Assembly: GCF_000970045.1 (NCBI RefSeq)
Contig: NZ_CP009505.1
Coordinates: 1,922,001-1,986,000, forward strand
Direction: 5' to 3'
Origin: Methanosarcina sp. MTP4
GTDB taxonomy: Archaea > Halobacteriota > Methanosarcinia > Methanosarcinales > Methanosarcinaceae
DNA length: 64,000 nt
Positions 20,751 to 55,435 of this stretch are shown piece by piece. The notes under the pieces were generated by a model, which did not search any database, was not told the DNA's origin, and was given only the letters and a program-made list of their open reading frames with translations. The number at the start of each line of letters is the position of its first letter. Positions within the stretch are counted from its first letter, which is position 1. A program made the translations under genes and the position numbers.

Positions 20751-20880
20751 AACAACCTTATTAGCCTTATTTGGGTCGTTCTTGTACGGCCGTGAAGTCG
20801 GTCGGCCTTTCCCAAATGTAAATGAATAAAGAGTGAAATAAAAAGCAAAACTTGGCATTAAAGAGATGGTAAAAAATAAC
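20751..20880. repeat. Left half of the palindrome-ended element, copy IV
   Basis: AACCTTATTAGCCTTATTTG, GTCGTTCTTGTACGG, hairpin GGCCG..CGGCC (20788-20807), then CCTTTCCCAAATGTAAATGA and AGTGAAATAAAAAGCAAAAC. It aligns with the left parts of the elements at 48110, 49883 and 53366, but the stem sequence differs and the right end is absent. Confidence 0.7.
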
Positions 20881-40500: not shown

Positions 40501-40580
40501 AACCACAGAAAGCACGGAAAACACGGAATAAAAGAAATAGGGGCACAATCCTTCCGTGCTTTCCGTGTCTTCCGTGGTTA
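40501..40580. repeat. CACGGAA inverted-repeat element, copy 1
   Basis: Left arm AACCACAGAAAGCACGGAAA and right arm TTTCCGTGTCTTCCGTGGTT are near-perfect inverted repeats separated by about 22 bp. Each arm is itself built of 8-10-bp CACGGAAA units. A related pair lies at 55740-55905. Confidence 0.75.
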
Positions 40581-45651: not shown

Positions 45652-47952
45652 ATGACAATTTCAGGTAAGGCCGTGGTCGGCATGGAAACCGTTGAACTGG
45701 AAACTTTAAGGAAAGATAAGCAGAGGATCTTTGAAGATATCCTGCAGTATTTCGAGACTCAGCAGAGGGGCTACATCAAGGTCCCCACGGGCTGGGGCAA
45801 GACCTTCCTCTCAAAGCACATAATGAAAAAATACTATGAGGAGGGAAAGCTCGTGCTTTTCCTGGTCTCGAAAAATAATCAGCTCCTGACCCAGACCTAT
45901 TATGACAGGAAAAAGGACCGTCCCCTTTTCCCGAACAGTGTTGTCCTTTCCTCGGCACACAAGACCGATCGAAAAGAGCTTCTGAATAAACTTAAAGAAT
46001 TCAAGGCAAGGGGAGAGAAAGGGAATGATAAAGGGGAGGGAAAAGGAAAACAGGTGAAAAGGGGTGAAGGAAGTGCTGAAGGTTTTGTGCTCTTCGCGTC
46101 CCTCCAGACCGTGCTCGGCAAACAAAGCGCGGAGCTCAAGGAGCTGCTTCTGGAATATGCCGATATTGCGATAGTGGACGAGATCCACAATTTCATCAAC
46201 AACCGGGGCAATGATTTCCTGAACACGTTTGGGGACCGGACCCGGATCCTGGGCATGACTGCGACCCCGTTCCAGGGGGTTGTGGGAAACGTCAAGTTCG
46301 TGGACGAGATTTCCGGGGATATGCGGGAGGTCTACGGGAAAAGTTTGCCTGAATGTATCCTGGACGAAGAACTGGCTAACCTGAAGTATACGATTGCCGA
46401 GAGCAGAGAAGACATCCTCGAGGTCTTTGACTTTGAAAAAGGCCTGGCAGAACTTGATCGGCAGGACCTTTTCCTGGACTGCAGCACCGCGGATAAAATT
46501 AAGAAAGTTATCCGGCGGACCGGGCTTGCCAAAGATGTGTACGAGTCCAAAATCCGGAGGGGAAATGCAAAGACCCTGGTCTTCTGCGCCCCGGTCCGGA
46601 AACAGGTCTACGGGGTTGGCAGTGAGGATGAGAAGATTAACGCCTTCCATGCCAAGCTCGCATCCGCAATCTTTAACGAGGAAATCGCCGCCGAAGAGTT
46701 CGAAAATGATCCGGACCCCGTACTTCCCATGAGTTTCGACAACTACGCAGCACCCGGGATTTTCAAAGATGCGGCTTTTATCTCTTCGGAACTCTCGAAG
46801 GATGAACAAAAAGCCCTCCTCGAAGCTTTCAGGGACCCGGAAAAGGCTCCTTTTATCCTCTGCACTGTTGGCATGTTGATTGAGGGCTTCGACTTCCCTG
46901 CCCTTGAAGCTCTTGTCCTCCTCAGGCCCACCCTGAGTATGCGCCTTTTCGAGCAGCAGCTCGGAAGGGTAACCCGTCTCTCCCCGGAAACGGGCAAAAA
47001 GAGGGGAAACATCTTCGAAATTGCCGATAACATCGATTCTCTCTACCAGCACTTCGGAGAAGGGGTTTTCGGAGGGGAGAAAGTTGAGCAGATCCAGATG
47101 CTCCAGCCTGAAATCCGCCTTGAGGAACTCTTCTCCGAAGGGGACGCCGCCAGGGCAATCAGAGAAGGGAGAATCGAGCTGAAAAAGATCGATTTCAGTG
47201 CCGGTAAAAAAGGTCCTGGCGGGGAAAAAGGCAGAGGAAAAGGAAGGGGAAAAGGGAGAGGCAGAGGAAAAACAGAAGGGCCGGAACCCGTGGAGGTCCC
47301 TGTGCGCCTCCCGCCAACAGCTCTTCGGGTCAGGTATTATTCTCGCCTGCTGGCCCTGACTGAGGAAAGGGATATCGGGGCTTTTGAACGGGAAAAGCGG
47401 GAACTCATGCGTGGAGCTCTCAGGTTCAGGCTCCGGGATGCCGGGGACGCCGAGGAACTTGTCGAACTTGTCGCTTCCGTCAACAAACTCAAGCGGGAAG
47501 CCTACGAAGACCGCCGCCTTAAAGACAGCTCAAGAAGGGTCAAACCAAAAGTCTTCGGGGAAGTGGAATGGCTCCTGAAACTCCAGGCCCTGAACTCCCT
47601 CAAATATTCCAGTAAACACCTTTCCTATCAGGAAAAAGGCAGGATCTTGAAAACTCTGGGCTTCGAACCCGATTTCAAGCGGATAGACAGTTTCCGGCTC
47701 AAATGCCTGAAAATCGGTTCCGCCCAGAAGACCCTCCCTGAACTCCTGAAAGTGCTTGGTTTCGTGCACCGCCTCTCCTCGGAAGAGACCTACCAGTTTC
47801 TGGACAAAAAGAAAAAAGAACAGTGGAAACGCGAATTCATGCCTGCGATCTACTGGGGCTTCTGCTTTGTTGAAGATTCCCCCGAACTCAAAGAGCTTTT
47901 CGAGTCCACCGAATGGGACCGCCGGGTCAAGAATATAATCCGGCAGAAATGA
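45652..47952 (+). CDS. SF2 DEAD/DEAH-type helicase
   Basis: A 766-residue helicase. N-terminal core: VPTGWGKTFLSKHI (Walker A near 45), DEIHNFINNRG (near 175), GMTATPFQG. C-terminal core: CTVGMLIEGFDFPALEALVL and EQQLGRVTRLSPETGKKRG. A Gly-Lys-Arg low-complexity linker (near 520-545) leads to a helical C-terminal part without a recognised domain, ending LFESTEWDRRVKNIIRQK. It resembles the helicase part of UvrB/ResIII-type proteins but has no nuclease motif. Start ATG 45652 or 45682. It stands alone; role unknown, with DNA repair or defence possible. Confidence 0.85.
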   Translation: MTISGKAVVGMETVELETLRKDKQRIFEDILQYFETQQRGYIKVPTGWGKTFLSKHIMKKYYEEGKLVLFLVSKNNQLLTQTYYDRKKDRPLFPNSVVLSSAHKTDRKELLNKLKEFKARGEKGNDKGEGKGKQVKRGEGSAEGFVLFASLQTVLGKQSAELKELLLEYADIAIVDEIHNFINNRGNDFLNTFGDRTRILGMTATPFQGVVGNVKFVDEISGDMREVYGKSLPECILDEELANLKYTIAESREDILEVFDFEKGLAELDRQDLFLDCSTADKIKKVIRRTGLAKDVYESKIRRGNAKTLVFCAPVRKQVYGVGSEDEKINAFHAKLASAIFNEEIAAEEFENDPDPVLPMSFDNYAAPGIFKDAAFISSELSKDEQKALLEAFRDPEKAPFILCTVGMLIEGFDFPALEALVLLRPTLSMRLFEQQLGRVTRLSPETGKKRGNIFEIADNIDSLYQHFGEGVFGGEKVEQIQMLQPEIRLEELFSEGDAARAIREGRIELKKIDFSAGKKGPGGEKGRGKGRGKGRGRGKTEGPEPVEVPVRLPPTALRVRYYSRLLALTEERDIGAFEREKRELMRGALRFRLRDAGDAEELVELVASVNKLKREAYEDRRLKDSSRRVKPKVFGEVEWLLKLQALNSLKYSSKHLSYQEKGRILKTLGFEPDFKRIDSFRLKCLKIGSAQKTLPELLKVLGFVHRLSSEETYQFLDKKKKEQWKREFMPAIYWGFCFVEDSPELKELFESTEWDRRVKNIIRQK

Positions 47953-48109
47953 AGGGCAGGGGACCTGCCCTGTACCTTCTTTTTGTATCAGGTTTTTTGC
48001 ACCAAGTTTTTGAATCATGATTTCTAAATCCGGAAATAGGCTCCTATATTTTGATCCAGAACTGTAGGGGAAACAGTCCGCATAATCGATGAACTCCCGA
48101 TCTGAAGCC
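47953..48109. other. Spacer downstream of the helicase gene
   Basis: No gene is supported between the helicase stop and the repeat. T-rich runs CTTCTTTTTGTATC and AGGTTTTTTGC follow the stop codon and may terminate transcription. Confidence 0.3.
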
Positions 48110-48395
48110 GATTTAACCTTATTTAGCCTCATTGAGTCGTCCTTGTCCGGACGCAGTCCGGCTTTTTCAAAATGTAAGATAAAAAGATAAGTAAAAAGCA
48201 AAAGCGCCATCAAGAGGGTTGAAGGCTGTTTTGCTCAATATTAAAAACATAATTAATATTAAAATTAAGATACAGTTCCTATCTTTTTTATCTTAATTTC
48301 TATTTCGGAGAGGGCCGCCAGGCAAGCTGGCGGAGGTTTTCGATTACTCCTCAGGACAGAACGGTTTATGGGGTCGAAGAAAGCATTTACTGCAA
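48110..48395. repeat. Palindrome-ended element, copy I
   Basis: The left end carries the hairpin CCGGAC-GCA-GTCCGG (48147-48161) followed by GGCTTTTTCAAAATG. The right end carries GGAGAGGGC before the hairpin CCGCCAG-GCAAG-CTGGCGG (48315-48333), then about 60 bp ending GGTTTATGGGGTCGAAGAAA. The two ends are inverted repeats of each other over about 35 bp. Homologues lie at 49883 and 53366, and a left half at 20751. Confidence 0.85.
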
Positions 48396-48641
48396 GTTAC
48401 TGGTTGCTATCCAAAATCTCCTCTTTGAACTCCTTAGCTCAGATCGTCTTTTGAATTAGTATTTTTTCTTAATATATACAAAATTCAAATGTATAGTTTG
48501 ATTGTCTGGCCATAAAAAGTAAGTAACATGCAGAAAATGTTTATACATTTTATTGTAATGTTATATGTAATAATTTGAAGTAAAATTTTACTTCTCTTCA
48601 TCCAGTATTTTTATTAATCTTTCAGTTATCGGAGGATCAAT

Positions 48642-49784
48642 ATGAGTCAAAAGCTGAAAATGTTCCAGATTTTTCTTGTTTTAATTCTGTTTTCGCAGTT
48701 ATCGAGTGTAGCAGCTGCAGCAGCACCTGCAGAACAATGGAACAGGTCTTTTGGCGGAGGTAGTGAAGATAATTTCAGATGTGTTGAACAGACTTCAGAT
48801 AGCGGGTACATAGCTGCTGGTTCAACATATTCATACGGTAAAGGGACAAAAGGCTATCCGGATGCCTGGCTTATCAAGGTTGACAATAAGGGGAATCTGC
48901 AGTGGAATAAAACTTTCGGGGGGACGTATTTTGATGAGGGGTACTTTACCCGGCAAACCTCAGATGGAGGTTATGTGTTATCGGGTTATACATTTCCTTC
49001 CGGCTATGCCGAGCCCTGGCTGGTCAGGACTGACAGGAACGGAAATGAGATGTGGAACAAGGTATCTGATGAAATCACTCACGAGATCTATCTCCAATAT
49101 ATGGCTGAACATACCTCTGATGGGGGATACATAATTGGAGATACGGTTATACATGAAATTGGAAGTAATTTTGGTTCTCTTCTAGTTGATTATGATATCA
49201 GGATAACTAAATATGATATAAACGGTAATCAGCAATGGAATAGCACCTTTGGCAAAAACCAGAGTCTTGAAACATTAAATCCTCTATTAAATTCTGTTAA
49301 GCAGACTTCTGATGGTGGATATGTAATTGCCAGCACAACCAGGTCAAATGAATCAAACAGTGATGATATCTGGCTCATCAAGATCGATGAATCCGGTCAG
49401 GAGCATTGGAATAAGACCTTCGGTAGCCCGAGGGATGATTTTGGCATCTCTATTTCAATGACTTCAGACAATGGTTATGTGTTGACGGGAAGATATGACG
49501 GTTCTGCTTTCATACTCAAAACGGACAGCGACGGTAATCAGGAATGGCTAAAAGAGTTTTCAAATTGTACGCTCTATTCCGTTCAACAGACTTCAGATGG
49601 TGGATATGTAGCTGCGGGCGTTAAAAATGAGAATGCATGGTTGGTTAAGCTGGCAGGTGATGGAAGGAATATTGAGAATGAAGAAACGTCAATTGAATAT
49701 AATGACATCTCTGACAGCGTTTTCAGCCAGATACTAAATTCCATCTACGGTATTTCCAGTGGGATTAATACATTCGGGATTTAA
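48642..49784 (+). CDS. Exported beta-propeller-like repeat protein
   Basis: A 380-residue protein with a signal peptide (FQIFLVLILFSQLSSVAAA). It then has seven or so repeats of about 45 residues built on the theme QTSDGGYIAAG, DAWLIKVDNKGN, QWNKTFGG. The repeats fit blades of a beta-propeller found in cell-surface or secreted archaeal proteins. There is no C-terminal anchor or sorting signal; the end is a plain hydrophilic tail, so it may be released or bind a partner. GGAGGATCAAT precedes ATG 48642. Palindrome-ended repeats flank the gene on both sides. Ligand unknown. Confidence 0.8.
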   Translation: MSQKLKMFQIFLVLILFSQLSSVAAAAAPAEQWNRSFGGGSEDNFRCVEQTSDSGYIAAGSTYSYGKGTKGYPDAWLIKVDNKGNLQWNKTFGGTYFDEGYFTRQTSDGGYVLSGYTFPSGYAEPWLVRTDRNGNEMWNKVSDEITHEIYLQYMAEHTSDGGYIIGDTVIHEIGSNFGSLLVDYDIRITKYDINGNQQWNSTFGKNQSLETLNPLLNSVKQTSDGGYVIASTTRSNESNSDDIWLIKIDESGQEHWNKTFGSPRDDFGISISMTSDNGYVLTGRYDGSAFILKTDSDGNQEWLKEFSNCTLYSVQQTSDGGYVAAGVKNENAWLVKLAGDGRNIENEETSIEYNDISDSVFSQILNSIYGISSGINTFGI

Positions 49785-49882
49785 TAAAGGGGGCTATTTC
49801 CCCTTCCACCTTTACTTGCAGATCTTAATTGATTACTACCTCCTGACACCTCCTGCAGAATTACTGAACTAAAGCCGGAACA
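49785..49882. other. Spacer after the propeller gene
   Basis: A short GC-poor spacer with TAATAAAGGGGG..TTTCCCCTT (stop codon region 49782-49806). GGGG and CCCC arms could form a weak terminator. Nothing else. Confidence 0.35.
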
Positions 49883-50150
49883 ACCGTATTAGCCTTCCCG
49901 CGTCGTTCTTGTCCCGGACGCAGTCCGGCTTTTTCCAAAATGAAAATTAAAAGATGAGTAGAAAGTAAAATTTGTAGGGGCGAACCCGAAGAGAGCTTTA
50001 ATAGATCTCAAAAACAGAATTAATATCTGAATGTAGTTATAATTCAATCTTTTTTATCTTAATTTCTTTTTGTGCAGGGCCGCCAGCCAGGCTGGAGGAG
50101 GATTCCATCTCTTCTCATGACCGAGCGGTTTTTGGGGTCAAAGAAAGCGT
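49883..50150. repeat. Palindrome-ended element, copy II
   Basis: Left hairpin CCGGAC-GCA-GTCCGG (49914-49928) followed by GGCTTTTTCCAAAATGAAAA. Right hairpin CCGCCAGCCAGGCTGGAGG (50080-50098), then CGGTTTTTGGGGTCAAAGAA. It lies between the convergent ends of the propeller gene and the NosD-like gene. Confidence 0.85.
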
Positions 50151-50250
50151 TATACTGGATAGAGTAGCAAAAATACGCTTTAAGAAAAGAGAAAAAGGAA
50201 AGAAAAAAAATCATAGAGGGGAAAAGATGACCCTCAATGACTATTTTGTT

Positions 50251-52980
50251 TCATTCTTTTCTTGCGAAGTAGAGAGCTCCCAGAAGACCTGAAAGCGCAA
50301 ATGCAATTTCAAATCCTGGTGTCTTCTGTTCCTCATCGTTTCTTTCTTCCCCGGAATCTTTTGGCACTTCAGAAGCAGGAGGCTCTTCGGATGCATCCGT
50401 TTCCCCGTCAGGAGTGAGCGTCCCCGAGCCAGGGGACTGCTCAGTTTCTTCAGGCTCCTGTGTCCCTGCTGTTTCTTCCTCTGTCACGGCGGGGATTATC
50501 CTGGCTTCTCCTGTCCCGCTGCCCCCTCTGTGATGTGTCGTACCATCAGGAACAGAGGATGGGAGTACAAGCGGGAGGAAATCGATATTATCCCCTGTTT
50601 CCGCGATGCTATATGGGGAATCAGAGATCCCGTCATTATTTTTATCGGTTGCACTTTCGGAAAAGCCCGTTCCTTCCGGACTTGCCCAGAAGTTTCCGCC
50701 AAGATATGGGCCGCCAATGGTGTTTAGGCCCGGGGCTTTTGTGGTATTCCAGCGGTTTCCGGTGTTTGTACCTTCAAAATAGGTGTTGTTTGTGTTGTTG
50801 AAGTAATTGTCGTAGATGAGGCTGTTGCTGGAAAAAGCCAGATATATTCCGTATTTGGAGTTATTACAGGCATTGCTACTGGAAAGCGTGTTCTTGCCGG
50901 AAAACGCCAGATAGATGCCGTATTCAGAGTTATTGCAGGCCTCGTTTCTGCAAACTATGTTGTTTCCGGACTGCACCAGCGCGATTCCATAGCTATTGTT
51001 ACAGGCTGTGTTGTTGGAAAGTGTATTGTTACCGGATTCGACCAGATTGACTCCGAAGGTGTTGTTGCAGGCTGTGTTGTTGGAAAGTGTATTGTTACCG
51101 GATTCAACCAGAATGACTCCGAAGGTGTTGTCGAGGGCTGTGTTGTTGGAAAGTGTGCTGTTGCCGGAAAAGTCCAGGTATATACCGTATTCAGAGTTAT
51201 TACAGGCTGTGTTGTTGGAAAGCGTGTTGTAGTTACTGGATAAAGCCAGATAGATTCCGTACTCAGAGTTATTGCAGGCCTCGTTCTTTTCCACCGTGTT
51301 ATTGCTGGACGAAGCCAGATATATGCCGCTCTCTGAATTATTATAGGCTGTATTCTCGGAAAGCGTGTTCCTGTCGGAAGATTCCAGCCAGATGCCGCTC
51401 TCAGAATTATTATCGGCTGTGTTTCCGGAAATTGTGTTGTTTCCGGACTGTTCCAGCCCGATTCCGTAGCTATTGTTGCAGGCTGTGTTGTTGGAAATTG
51501 TGTTGTTACCGGAATAAAATAGGGTTATGCCACCGAAGTTTTCAGAAAGTACGTTTTTCTCGAAAGTACAGTTCTTTGCACTTCTTAGATAGATTCCGGC
51601 ATAAGGATATTCAGCCCCTGTTATGTTAAAGCCGCATATCGTAACGGAATCGGCAGTTATGTTAAATACGGGCTTTCCGGCATCCGAAGCCTGAACCTCT
51701 GTAAGCCCGGACCCGCTTTCGGAGTGGATAACCAGGCTCTTTGTAACGTCCACATTTTCCCGGCATGTCCCCTCATCCACGAGAATGGTATGCCCTTCAA
51801 GAGTTCCGGTGTCATCAATGGCTGCCTGGATCGAAACAAATCTCTTCCCAGTGTTAATGTTTCGGACAGGATTATTCACGGTGACTATTATCAGGTCGCT
51901 TCCTGTTAGCCCGCCTTTGTCAGTCGCATTAGCACGGATGTAATAATCACGGCTGTCAACTTTTGTGCTGTCCCACTCCACGCTCCAGAGGTCGGAATCT
52001 CCCAAAAAGGTGCCTGTTTCAGCCTTTCCGATCTCATTCCAGCTCAGTCCGTCCGGGGAATATTCAAAGCTGCAAAAGTCCACGTCCCCGTCAACTGTTG
52101 TCGCGTTTACGTTTATTGTCCCCGATATAATGGACCCGTTTAAGGCTTCGTTGAGCTCGACGTCAGGAACCGAATTTTCCCCTACTATGAAATTCGAGGC
52201 CTGCAGGCAGAGAGGATAGAGATCCCTTTCTTCATACGAAGTGTCATTAATGCCGTCTCCGTTTGAATCAGTGCCGGTGTAACCGTCATAGTAGTTTCCA
52301 AGGTAGCCGTAATATTCCCTGCCGCCGTATGTATAACTCACGGGTTCCGGAGTATTCCATGTGATGTCCAGATTGCTGCCAAAAGAAAAGTCCTGACTGT
52401 TTCCTGTGAAATCATTCAGGTAAATATTTGCGCTCGAAGAATCCATAGAGATGCCCGTGATACAGGCAGAAACCCGGTTATTGGAAAGCGTGGCGCCTTC
52501 GGAAGAAATCAAGGAAATTCCACTTGTTAAATAGCCATTTCCATTATAACCCTCAATTTCATTATTTTCAATCGTACAGTTTGCTCCCTCTATTTTGATA
52601 CCTATGGAAGCACTGTTGCGCTTTATGGTAAATCCGCTAATACTTACCGAATTAGTCGGGCTTTTGATTGTAAATACGGGAAGACCTATCATGGGATTGT
52701 CACGGACTGTAACATCAGCATCCGCCCTGATTGCTAAATTCTTACTGATTTCAACACAATCGGTATAATCCCCGCTGTGTACAATAATTGTGTCCCCCTC
52801 CAACGCTCTGTCCACGGCATTCTGGATATCACGTACTGCACGCCCGTTGGGGTCGCTGCTGGGATAAACATGAATTTCTTCTGCCGCGGTGATCCCTGTG
52901 CATATTATAAGAACCGCTACAATTGCTGTCAGGCAAATTATTTTCCAGTTTCTTTTTCGGATTCTTCCCTTATTTTTCAT
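50251..52980 (-). CDS. NosD-like right-handed beta-helix surface protein with PGF-CTERM-type tail
   Basis: A 909-residue exported protein. Signal peptide IICLTAIVAVLIICTGITAA is followed by two beta-helix blocks separated by an Ig-like segment (near 270-370). The second block holds about 14 repeats of 23-24 residues (TLSNNTACNNSYGI-like). The tail is Thr/Glu/Ser-rich and ends in TPGFEIAFALSGLLGALYF with ARKE, the PGF-CTERM pattern that archaeosortase A cuts and links to lipid. It is therefore probably an S-layer-associated carbohydrate-binding or processing protein. The repeats differ by few bases and are probably prone to expansion. Confidence 0.88.
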   Translation of the reverse strand: MKNKGRIRKRNWKIICLTAIVAVLIICTGITAAEEIHVYPSSDPNGRAVRDIQNAVDRALEGDTIIVHSGDYTDCVEISKNLAIRADADVTVRDNPMIGLPVFTIKSPTNSVSISGFTIKRNSASIGIKIEGANCTIENNEIEGYNGNGYLTSGISLISSEGATLSNNRVSACITGISMDSSSANIYLNDFTGNSQDFSFGSNLDITWNTPEPVSYTYGGREYYGYLGNYYDGYTGTDSNGDGINDTSYEERDLYPLCLQASNFIVGENSVPDVELNEALNGSIISGTINVNATTVDGDVDFCSFEYSPDGLSWNEIGKAETGTFLGDSDLWSVEWDSTKVDSRDYYIRANATDKGGLTGSDLIIVTVNNPVRNINTGKRFVSIQAAIDDTGTLEGHTILVDEGTCRENVDVTKSLVIHSESGSGLTEVQASDAGKPVFNITADSVTICGFNITGAEYPYAGIYLRSAKNCTFEKNVLSENFGGITLFYSGNNTISNNTACNNSYGIGLEQSGNNTISGNTADNNSESGIWLESSDRNTLSENTAYNNSESGIYLASSSNNTVEKNEACNNSEYGIYLALSSNYNTLSNNTACNNSEYGIYLDFSGNSTLSNNTALDNTFGVILVESGNNTLSNNTACNNTFGVNLVESGNNTLSNNTACNNSYGIALVQSGNNIVCRNEACNNSEYGIYLAFSGKNTLSSSNACNNSKYGIYLAFSSNSLIYDNYFNNTNNTYFEGTNTGNRWNTTKAPGLNTIGGPYLGGNFWASPEGTGFSESATDKNNDGISDSPYSIAETGDNIDFLPLVLPSSVPDGTTHHRGGSGTGEARIIPAVTEEETAGTQEPEETEQSPGSGTLTPDGETDASEEPPASEVPKDSGEERNDEEQKTPGFEIAFALSGLLGALYFARKE

Positions 52981-53257
52981 AGGTATTCCTGCTGAAGTGT
53001 CTGCTTGTATTGTAAAAAGTGAATTAAATATCGATTTTCAATTTATTTTGAATTAAATATCGATTTTTATCTTTATTAATGTATTAAATAATAATGAATG
53101 TTCTTATATTTTAATCCACGTATAATTTGTAGGTTGTTTATTGGCAAAAAATCACTTGCGAGAGCCATAAACTACATTCATCGAAAATTCTTCAGTTTAA
53201 TTTTTAGGAAATTTGTACTACCTTTAAATCCTCAATATTTTTGGCCGAGTTTATTTC
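52981..53257 (-). promoter_or_regulatory. Upstream region of the NosD-like gene with 18-bp direct repeat
   Basis: GAATTAAATATCGATTTT occurs at 53021-53038 and 53050-53067, 29 bp apart, 40-90 bp upstream of the start codon on the other strand. Binding-site function is inferred. The rest of the interval shows no gene. Confidence 0.5.
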
Positions 53258-53366
53258 CTTCTATTCTGTCCTGAACTATTCTGTCCTGAACTATTCTGTT
53301 CTGGACTATTCTGTCCTGAACTATTCTGTTCTGGACTATTCTGTCCTGAACTATTCTGTTCTGGAC
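53258..53366. repeat. 15-bp tandem repeats abutting element III
   Basis: CTATTCTGTCCTGAA alternates with CTATTCTGTTCTGGA about seven times and leads directly into the left end of the palindrome-ended element. Confidence 0.8.
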
Positions 53367-53612
53367 TATTCTTCCCGGGTGCAGTCCGGCTTTCCTAAAT
53401 AAAGGTAAAGGGATAGGTAGAAAGTAAAAGCGACATGAGATATATAGAAAAACTTACTCAAAATTAAAAAAAGACTTAATATTTTTAGGTGTCATGTAAT
53501 TATAGATTTCCTTAATTTTTAATTTTCATTTTCGGAAAGGACTGCCAGGCAAGCTGGCGGAGGCTCTCATCTCTATTCAGCACGAAACGATTTTTTGGGG
53601 TCAAGGGAAGCA
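53366..53612. repeat. Palindrome-ended element, copy III
   Basis: Left hairpin CCGGGT-GCA-GTCCGG (53375-53389), with the changed bases keeping G-T pairs. Right shoulder TTCGGAAAGG and hairpin GCCAG-GCAAG-CTGGC (53544-53558), then ATTTTTTGGGGTCAAGGGAA. The interval 53613-53875 holds no gene; it is AT-rich and probably includes the symporter promoter. Confidence 0.85.
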
Positions 53613-53875
53613 GTTCCGTAGCCAAAATTTATTCTTTTTGTTATTTTTATTTTCTGAGTCCGTTTTTCCGGATCCTTTTGGTGAAGGTTTGTTTGCGTTT
53701 TCTCATCATAGTATTTATATTACTGTTTTTTACCAAAACTCCCTATGTATTTTTTATGAATTTATAATAATAAATAAGAAAGTAAATATAAGATCAAGCT
53801 AAATTTATAACAAAAGATTATAAAAATCTTCAATATTTTCTCAAATATCAACAGAACTTAGGTTACTGATTCTCC

Positions 53876-55435
53876 ATGCCTGACAAGAAGCACCACCATA
53901 TTCCCGATCCCATGGAAATTACCCACGAAATCGCCGAGGAAACGAAAGAAATAACTCATGAAATAGCCGAGGGGATTTCCCGTCTCTATTGCCCCCTGGA
54001 TTTTAATCACCCTCATTCTCTCAAGTATATGAGCCATCACCTCCATGAGCTTATGGAAAAGAGGCTCTGGCTCAAAATCCTGCTGGGTATGTTTCTGGGT
54101 GTGGCTGTGGGACTGCTACTTGGGCCCTTCGGAGGGTTTGTCGAGCCCGAAATGGCTGAGGTTATCGGGGAATGGATCGCCCTTCCGGGGTACATTTTCC
54201 TGGGCCTGCTGAAGATGATCGTGATCCCTCTTGTACTAGCTTCCATCATCCTGGGGGTCGCTTCGAGTGAGAGTATGGCAGATCTTAAGAAAACAGGCCT
54301 GTCAACTGCGCTTTACTTTATCGTGACCACGGCTATAGCGACCTGCATCGGGCTCGGGATGGCGCTTTTCATCAGGCCCGGACAGTACATAGGCGGGGAA
54401 CTGCTCCAGGCTGCGATGGAAGGAGAAGCTCCCTCAGTCGCGCAAGATATGGATTTTTCTTTATCTCTCGGGGACCTGCCTTCAAAGATCGGAGGGCTCC
54501 TCCCTTCCAACCCCCTGGACGCCATGGTGCAGGGGGAAATGTTACAGGTCGTGATCATTGCTATCATAGTTGGTGTGGCCCTTGTCTCCCTGAGCAGGCG
54601 GCAGGCTGTCCCCCTGATCCACCTCCTGAACTCCGTGCAGGCTATCTGCATGACCGTGGTGAAGTGGAGCATGGCCCTTGCTCCGGTTGCGGTTTTCGGG
54701 CTGCTTACCAAGTTTACCATCATGCTTGGGATAGATGCCCTGGTGGGCATGGCCGTCTACGTGGCAACAGTGCTGGCAAGCCTGGGGCTCCTGATGGGCA
54801 TGAACCTGATAATCATTTCCGTCCTGGCCAGGAAAAACCCCTTTGATTTCCTGAAAGCTGTCTGGGACGTCCTTCTCCTTGCCTTTTCCACCTCAAGTTC
54901 CGCTGCCGTTATGCCCGTTTCCATCAAGACCGCCGAAGAAAAGCTGGGGGTCAGGCCTTCAATTTCCCAGTTCGTAATCCCCCTGGGTGCTACCGTTAAC
55001 ATGAACGGGACCGCCCTTTACCAGGGCGTTGCAACGGTCTTCCTGGCAGAAGTCTTCGGAATCCACCTTGGGTTCGGGCAGCTCGTGCTCGTTATGGTCA
55101 TGGCCGTGGCAGCCGCAATTGGCACCCCCTCGATTCCCGGAGTAGGGATAGTTATCCTGGCGATGATCCTGAGCAGCGTGGGAATCCCTACCACCGGAAT
55201 AGCCCTCATCATGGGAGTAGACCGTATCCTGGACATGACCCGTACGTCCGTAAACGTTGCCGGGGACCTGGTAACCTGCACGGTAATGGACCGCTTTATC
55301 GGAGGTAAGGGCGGGAAAGGAGAAGGGCTCGAAGGAGCCGAGGGCACAGCATGTGTACTTGGAGACGGGGAGGACCCCAAATTCAAGAGGGGAAAACCGG
55401 AACCTGCAGGTGCGGGTGCTTCCGAAGAGGAGTGA
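53876..55435 (+). CDS. Dicarboxylate/amino acid:cation symporter (DAACS family)
   Basis: A 519-residue carrier related to GltP/DctA. The hallmark re-entrant loop and helix motifs are visible: AFSTSSSAAVMPVSI, IPLGATVNMNGTALYQG and SIPGVGIVILAMIL. About eight transmembrane helices span residues 65-470. Unusual parts: a 60-residue hydrophilic, His-rich N-terminus with an imperfect repeat (EITHEIAEETKEITHEIAEG) and a Gly/Glu-rich C-terminus. It should take up glutamate, aspartate or C4 acids with sodium or protons. No operon partner. The start ATG 53876 is poorly supported by a ribosome site; a later Met could be used. Confidence 0.9.
   Translation: MPDKKHHHIPDPMEITHEIAEETKEITHEIAEGISRLYCPLDFNHPHSLKYMSHHLHELMEKRLWLKILLGMFLGVAVGLLLGPFGGFVEPEMAEVIGEWIALPGYIFLGLLKMIVIPLVLASIILGVASSESMADLKKTGLSTALYFIVTTAIATCIGLGMALFIRPGQYIGGELLQAAMEGEAPSVAQDMDFSLSLGDLPSKIGGLLPSNPLDAMVQGEMLQVVIIAIIVGVALVSLSRRQAVPLIHLLNSVQAICMTVVKWSMALAPVAVFGLLTKFTIMLGIDALVGMAVYVATVLASLGLLMGMNLIIISVLARKNPFDFLKAVWDVLLLAFSTSSSAAVMPVSIKTAEEKLGVRPSISQFVIPLGATVNMNGTALYQGVATVFLAEVFGIHLGFGQLVLVMVMAVAAAIGTPSIPGVGIVILAMILSSVGIPTTGIALIMGVDRILDMTRTSVNVAGDLVTCTVMDRFIGGKGGKGEGLEGAEGTACVLGDGEDPKFKRGKPEPAGAGASEEE

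Follow-up and report, generated by a model that had tools for sequence, protein, structure and literature searches.

Two-hairpin repeats in Methanosarcina sp. MTP4 are very probably old cores of a gene-less MITE family

The genome of Methanosarcina sp. MTP4, a single contig of 4.21 Mb, contains a stretch of 64,000 nucleotides, here called the window, in which three related copies of a two-hairpin unit and one left half lie on the plus strand, raising the question of what these repeats are and how they came to be there. A sequence-only reading had described units of ~250 to 280 bp bounded by two opposed hairpin ends, serving either as non-autonomous mobile units or as paired-end regulatory RNAs. 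Our analysis indicates that they are very probably the old cores of a gene-less MITE family, whose fuller copies elsewhere show target duplications and empty sites. The copies and their parts are as follows.

48091-48392, + strand: copy 1, putative MITE-family core (left hairpin, AT-rich interior, right hairpin, tail); 73% identity to copy 2; orthologues in G001, G002 and G003
48147-48161, + strand: copy 1 left hairpin CCGGAC-gca-GTCCGG, then CTTTTTC
48312-48336, + strand: copy 1 right hairpin block GGGCCGCCAGGCAAGCTGGCGGAGG; exact match to the consensus, near-invariant in 17 copies
48360-48384, + strand: copy 1 right tail AACGGTTTATGGGGTCGAAGAAAGC
49858-50157, + strand: copy 2, putative MITE-family core; similarity and matches to left and right models; tail remnant alone at the G001 and G003 site
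49914-49928, + strand: copy 2 left hairpin CCGGAC-gca-GTCCGG, then CTTTTTCC
50077-50101, + strand: copy 2 right hairpin block, 3 mismatches to the consensus
50124-50147, + strand: copy 2 right tail GCGGTTTTTGGGGTCAAAGAAAGC; diverged version retained in G001 and G003
53373-53615, + strand: copy 3, putative MITE-family core with a 15-bp minisatellite in place of the left outer part; similarity and right-model match; complete in G001
53375-53389, + strand: copy 3 left hairpin (CCGG..CCGG), then CTTTCC
53539-53563, + strand: copy 3 right hairpin block, 2 mismatches to the consensus
53586-53611, + strand: copy 3 right tail AACGATTTTTTGGGGTCAAGGGAAGC
20754-20850, + strand: left half copy, hairpin at 20787-20804; left-model match of 103 bits

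The window copies follow a shared plan, namely a left hairpin with GGCTTTTTCC, an AT-rich interior, a right hairpin CCGCCAG-N5-CTGGCGG and a common tail. As the sequence-only reading held, the three copies and the left half are real, and so is the tail beyond the right hairpin. Similarity among them is far beyond chance: copy 1 matches copy 2 at 73% identity over 309 bp (E 5e-47) and copy 3 at 69% over 252 bp (E 8e-27), and the half copy aligns at 76% over 98 bp (E 2e-11). In profile searches copy 1 scores 92 bits for its left and 111 bits for its right part, and no right module was found within 1 kb of the half copy. The ~35-bp inverted repeats claimed for the ends are weak in these copies, amounting to one 53-bp inverted match (74%, E 0.003). 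Genes near the copies encode a helicase (45652-47952), a protein without a Pfam match (48642-49784, between copies 1 and 2), for which "exported" was the earlier label, a PGF-CTERM-anchored NosD/beta-helix protein (50251-52980, minus strand) and a sodium:dicarboxylate symporter (53876-55435). The minisatellite, of TATTCTGTCCTGAAC type, occupies 53265-53372, directly adjoining copy 3; it is expanded in MTP4, and the corresponding site in G001 has one or two units.

Four units were originally reported; they exist, but the family is far larger. Searches with left and right profiles gave strong matches to ~26 left modules and as many right modules in the MTP4 genome, with a same-strand right module just downstream of 16 of the 26 left modules; copy 3 and two weak copies add to these pairs, and left-only and right-only copies also occur. 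Two left-only copies, at window positions 20754-20850 and at MTP4 C1:202817-202959, have a distinct outer arm (TTCCTTTTTTGGAAAATGCTAGCTAATAGCC) in common and perhaps form a further subfamily. At another locus (L084, MTP4 C1:3164128-3164400) the right tail forms a tandem array with units of ~65 to 75 bp (GCTGGCGG...GAAAAACGGTTTG..GGGTCAACGGAAGTGCTTCTC).

The family extends beyond this genome. In the three closest relatives, G001 to G003, which belong to the same genus, the right module occurs 18 to 33 times per genome at E 0.001 and 16 to 30 times under stricter filters. The stricter search also found 23 right modules in G033, of a second genus, and one or two in four other genomes of that genus, and none in genomes sampled from 12 further genera. 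Matching right modules in named Methanosarcina loci suggest that this second genus is Methanosarcina. In the more distant Methanosarcina species, the helicase that neighbors copy 1 is 67 to 76% identical. Five Methanosarcina loci (L216, L223, L221, L225 and L215) have the family 3' of the orthologue of this helicase, in opposite orientation, and the family is absent downstream of the orthologue in L218. Either an insertion hot spot or an ancient insertion that was later inverted would account for these helicase-side copies.

Are the hairpins the ends of the unit, as the sequence-only reading supposed? Comparison of a full-length copy in G003 (L159) with the MTP4 copy at 1749.4 kb, which are 83 to 84% identical over ~545 bp, shows that they are not, as the similarity runs past the hairpins and stops at unrelated flanks, placing the hairpins inside the element. 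The hairpins are thus present but internal in the better-preserved copies, with the true ends ~100 bp further out. From left to right, fuller copies consist of a terminal repeat, a left outer arm, the left hairpin with a T-run, an interior that is first purine rich and then pyrimidine rich, the invariant right hairpin, a right outer arm and a terminal repeat. The terminal inverted repeats are ~30 bp long and imperfect, reading GGTCGTCCTGCATTATTCGGTTGATATTTTT on the left and near GGTGCTCCCTCATTAATCGGTTGATGTTGTT on the right (reverse complement), and the left and right ends agree at 18 to 21 of 31 positions in five copies. Fuller copies measure 373 to 545 bp, contain no transposase gene and are too short for one; a shorter subfamily of 373 to 478 bp starts with GATAGTCCTGC, and core subgroups have little in common beyond ~15 bp outside the hairpin neighborhood.

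One of these copies houses a second repeat (CCACGGAAGACACGGAAAGCACGGAAGG, ~144 bp), nested at MTP4 C1:1749793-1749937 (L038/L075) between apparent TA duplications and missing there in G001 and G003. It has dozens of similar places in the three relatives and a near-exact copy of its core in the window at ~40503-40577, and looks like an IS630-type MITE.

Target duplications were sought at such ends across all the loci analyzed, and nine end pairs were found. An exact 8-bp direct repeat lies just outside the ends in five of them (TAAAATTT, TTATTTTT, TATCTTTT, CATTTTTT and AAAATCAA); among the other four, two that are mutually orthologous match at 7 of 8 positions and two are decayed. None of the nine has an exact duplication of 6, 7, 9 or 10 bp, and when flanks were re-paired between copies, the observed agreement was reached in 0 of 20,000 trials. 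Empty sites, the other proposed check, were found as well. A 450-bp element in G003 (C55) is flanked by two CATTTTTT, and at the matching flank in MTP4, G001 and G002 there is one CATTTTTT and no element, a clean empty site. Likewise, the 409-bp MTP4 copy at 1258 kb is missing at the corresponding place in G001, where the two genomes also differ by one 16-bp unit of a local tandem repeat. For the MTP4 copy at 2273 kb and the copy at G003:C143, the two flanks fall on different stretches or the right one is absent.

The family has therefore dispersed as discrete units, with exact 8-bp duplications and with empty sites in sister species, and the duplications and empty sites together identify it as a MITE. 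Terminal inverted repeats, a duplication of fixed length, empty sites, small size, lack of a transposase gene and multiple copies are all found in the fuller copies. The idea of a non-autonomous mobile unit is thereby borne out for the family, but not demonstrated for the window copies themselves, at which neither outer inverted repeats nor target duplications are visible. The best reading of them is as relics of the MITE family, old and no longer mobile, with their own insertion suggested by the homology of their cores.

The history of the window copies is consistent with great age. Conserved synteny, proposed as an argument against mobility, holds for copy 1, which is at the same site in MTP4, G001, G002 and G003, but copies 2 and 3 vary between species. 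At the copy 2 site in G001 and G003, the hairpins and interior are gone and the tail is retained (AACAATTTTTGGGGTTGAAGAAAGC). This remnant makes deletion or recombination a more likely source of the difference than a recent, MTP4-specific insertion of copy 2. G002 has a single element in place of copy 1, gene 48642-49784 and copy 2, a state that would be explained either by recombination between copies or by its predating the duplication. For copy 3, G001 has the whole unit, and in G002 and G003 the left half is missing.

It is quite possible, if somewhat short of probable, that the cluster arose by local duplication or recombination of a gene-plus-repeat block and not by separate insertions, an account that is compatible with the MITE family. 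Copies 1 to 3 share a single orientation and span no more than 5.5 kb, the gene that separates copies 1 and 2 is missing from G002, where there is one element, and an extra right-half copy adjoins copy 1 in G001. However, the copies differ from one another by 27 to 33%, like unlinked members of the family, and local duplication would explain the cluster alone and not the genome-wide family.

A functional role for the hairpins is a separate matter. Pairing of the left hairpin is seen in almost every one of 37 copies, with a mean of -11.4 kcal/mol versus -6.8 for shuffled sequence, although its stem takes several unrelated sequences (GGAAGCC/GGCTTCC, GGTCACC/GGTGACC, GGGCGCC/GGCGGCC and CCGGAC/GTCCGG). 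These values come from folding of single copies, which replaced both RNAalifold, which found four pairs alone as MAFFT misaligned the variable stem, and a strict regular-expression survey of left stems, which returned too few copies for covariation. The right hairpin is near-invariant across 17 copies. Taken whole, a full-length copy forms a fold-back structure (z -3.4), as MITEs are expected to do.

Nearly all copies lie between genes. Of the 30 with two identified neighbors, 15 are flanked by convergent genes, compared with ~22% of gene pairs in a small background of 50 to 64 pairs (p ~0.001). This bias fits a preference for T-rich targets at gene ends and a terminator-like role equally well. 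Such a role for the copies is possible, and in its strongest form the hairpin pair would be a functional RNA or bidirectional transcription terminator under selection, in which the left hairpin and T-run end the upstream transcript and the right hairpin serves the opposite strand, the mobile element having merely spread the pair. Retained pairing with changing stem sequence, the near-invariant right hairpin and the preference for convergent genes speak for it. We nevertheless consider this unlikely, as copy 3 lies between divergent genes, copy 2 was lost in two relatives, no T-run follows the right hairpin on the minus strand, and a T-rich insertion preference alone gives the same convergent bias. 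Further results count against it: despite retention of the left hairpin across copies, the folded copy 2 core is no more stable than its shuffled versions (z = 0.23), and nothing in the window matches an Rfam family above the gathering score. The folding result also gives no support to the paired-end regulatory RNA proposed at the outset.

A more speculative variant, which we regard as a shade less probable still, is that the element carries its own terminator pair, one on each side, making insertion at gene ends harmless or useful. Its core would then outlast the transposon, and hosts among the Methanosarcinaceae would retain it as a 3'-end RNA structure or as a portable terminator working in both directions. 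Sites that are filled in some of the four species and empty in others offer a clean comparative system in which to ask whether mobile hairpins are co-opted as gene-end signals.

Although two opposed hairpins, an intergenic location and many copies recall REP/BIME- or REPIN-like palindrome pairs, which a Y1 (IS200/IS605-type) transposase mobilizes and which leave no target duplication, this identity is very improbable and we set it aside, since the better-preserved copies end in outer terminal inverted repeats and are flanked by exact 8-bp target duplications, IS200/IS605 transposition is not known to duplicate its target, and a separate mechanism would be needed for the core.

If the family is a MITE, what moved it? 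Two-frame IS1-like elements (Pfam DDE_Tnp_IS1) are present in G002 (L237 and L238), and L237 (G002:C23) has an exact 8-bp target duplication, TATTTTTT. Compared in register, its two ends match the consensus end of the MITE at 22 of 31 and 19 of 31 positions, as good a match being reached in 0 and 30 of 200,000 shuffles. Two other IS1-like elements, L235 and L236, were rejected as relatives because their ends (13/31 and 9/31) are no closer than chance. An IS1-like transposase acting in trans is the likely mobilizer, to judge from ends that are significantly alike but not close; no transposase with near-identical ends was found. The MTP4 genome yields no Pfam IS1 match; in place of an autonomous partner, what was seen there is an IS1-like stretch that is degraded (76%) and a lone end remnant. 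The remnant, at MTP4 C1:3151549-3151590 (L063), is an IS1-like right end that is 86% identical to L237 and lies just after the right-module copy at 3151 kb.

We therefore favor, on this comparative evidence, a scheme in which an IS1-like transposase would act in trans on the MITE ends, and the unit would insert at T-rich or A-rich intergenic targets, usually where neighboring genes converge. Once the unit is in place, its outer repeats would decay and the hairpin core persist. The window copies would be such cores, copy 1 ancient and copies 2 and 3 reshaped by deletion and by recombination with neighboring copies. The family would add to methanogens, across Methanosarcina and a sister genus, a MITE with target duplications and empty sites, and reading it in this way accounts for a set of intergenic repeats that might have been taken for regulatory RNAs. 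No description of it appeared in the literature searched, whose scope left most subscription papers and repeat databases such as ISfinder outside, and an earlier description is possible.

How does the family compare with known systems? The IS1 family (Pfam PF03400; here L237, G002:C23) resembles it in the 8-bp T-rich duplication and in similar ends. Unlike the MITE, the IS1-like element has a pair of transposase reading frames across ~1.17 kb (taken from L238, a near-identical copy), and its interior showed no resemblance to the MITE. REP/BIME and REPIN sequences are likewise opposed palindromes in intergenic DNA; the present family is set apart from them by its outer inverted repeats and by target duplications of 8 bp. 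Pneumococcal SPRITE, BOX and RUP repeats, likened here by description (PMC10969869), are intergenic mobile repeats with terminator-like hairpins, in a different organism and with a different architecture. MITEs are reported to span 50 to 500 bp, a limit that one subfamily here marginally exceeds, and in archaea are known from Sulfolobus, Halobacterium, Haloquadratum, Desulfurococcus and "several other archaeal genomes" (PMC10969869), a review of prokaryotic MITEs whose text does not contain the word Methanosarcina. The closest counterparts are Type II prokaryotic MITEs, such as QMITE1/2 of Coxiella and Chunjie of Geobacter (PMC10969869), which are also small and gene-less, with inverted repeats and duplications, and which occur in tens of copies, mostly intergenic and many truncated, with IS resemblance confined to the ends. 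The present family is distinguished from these by its two internal hairpins, one with a variable yet pairing stem, and by ends related to an archaeal IS1-like element.
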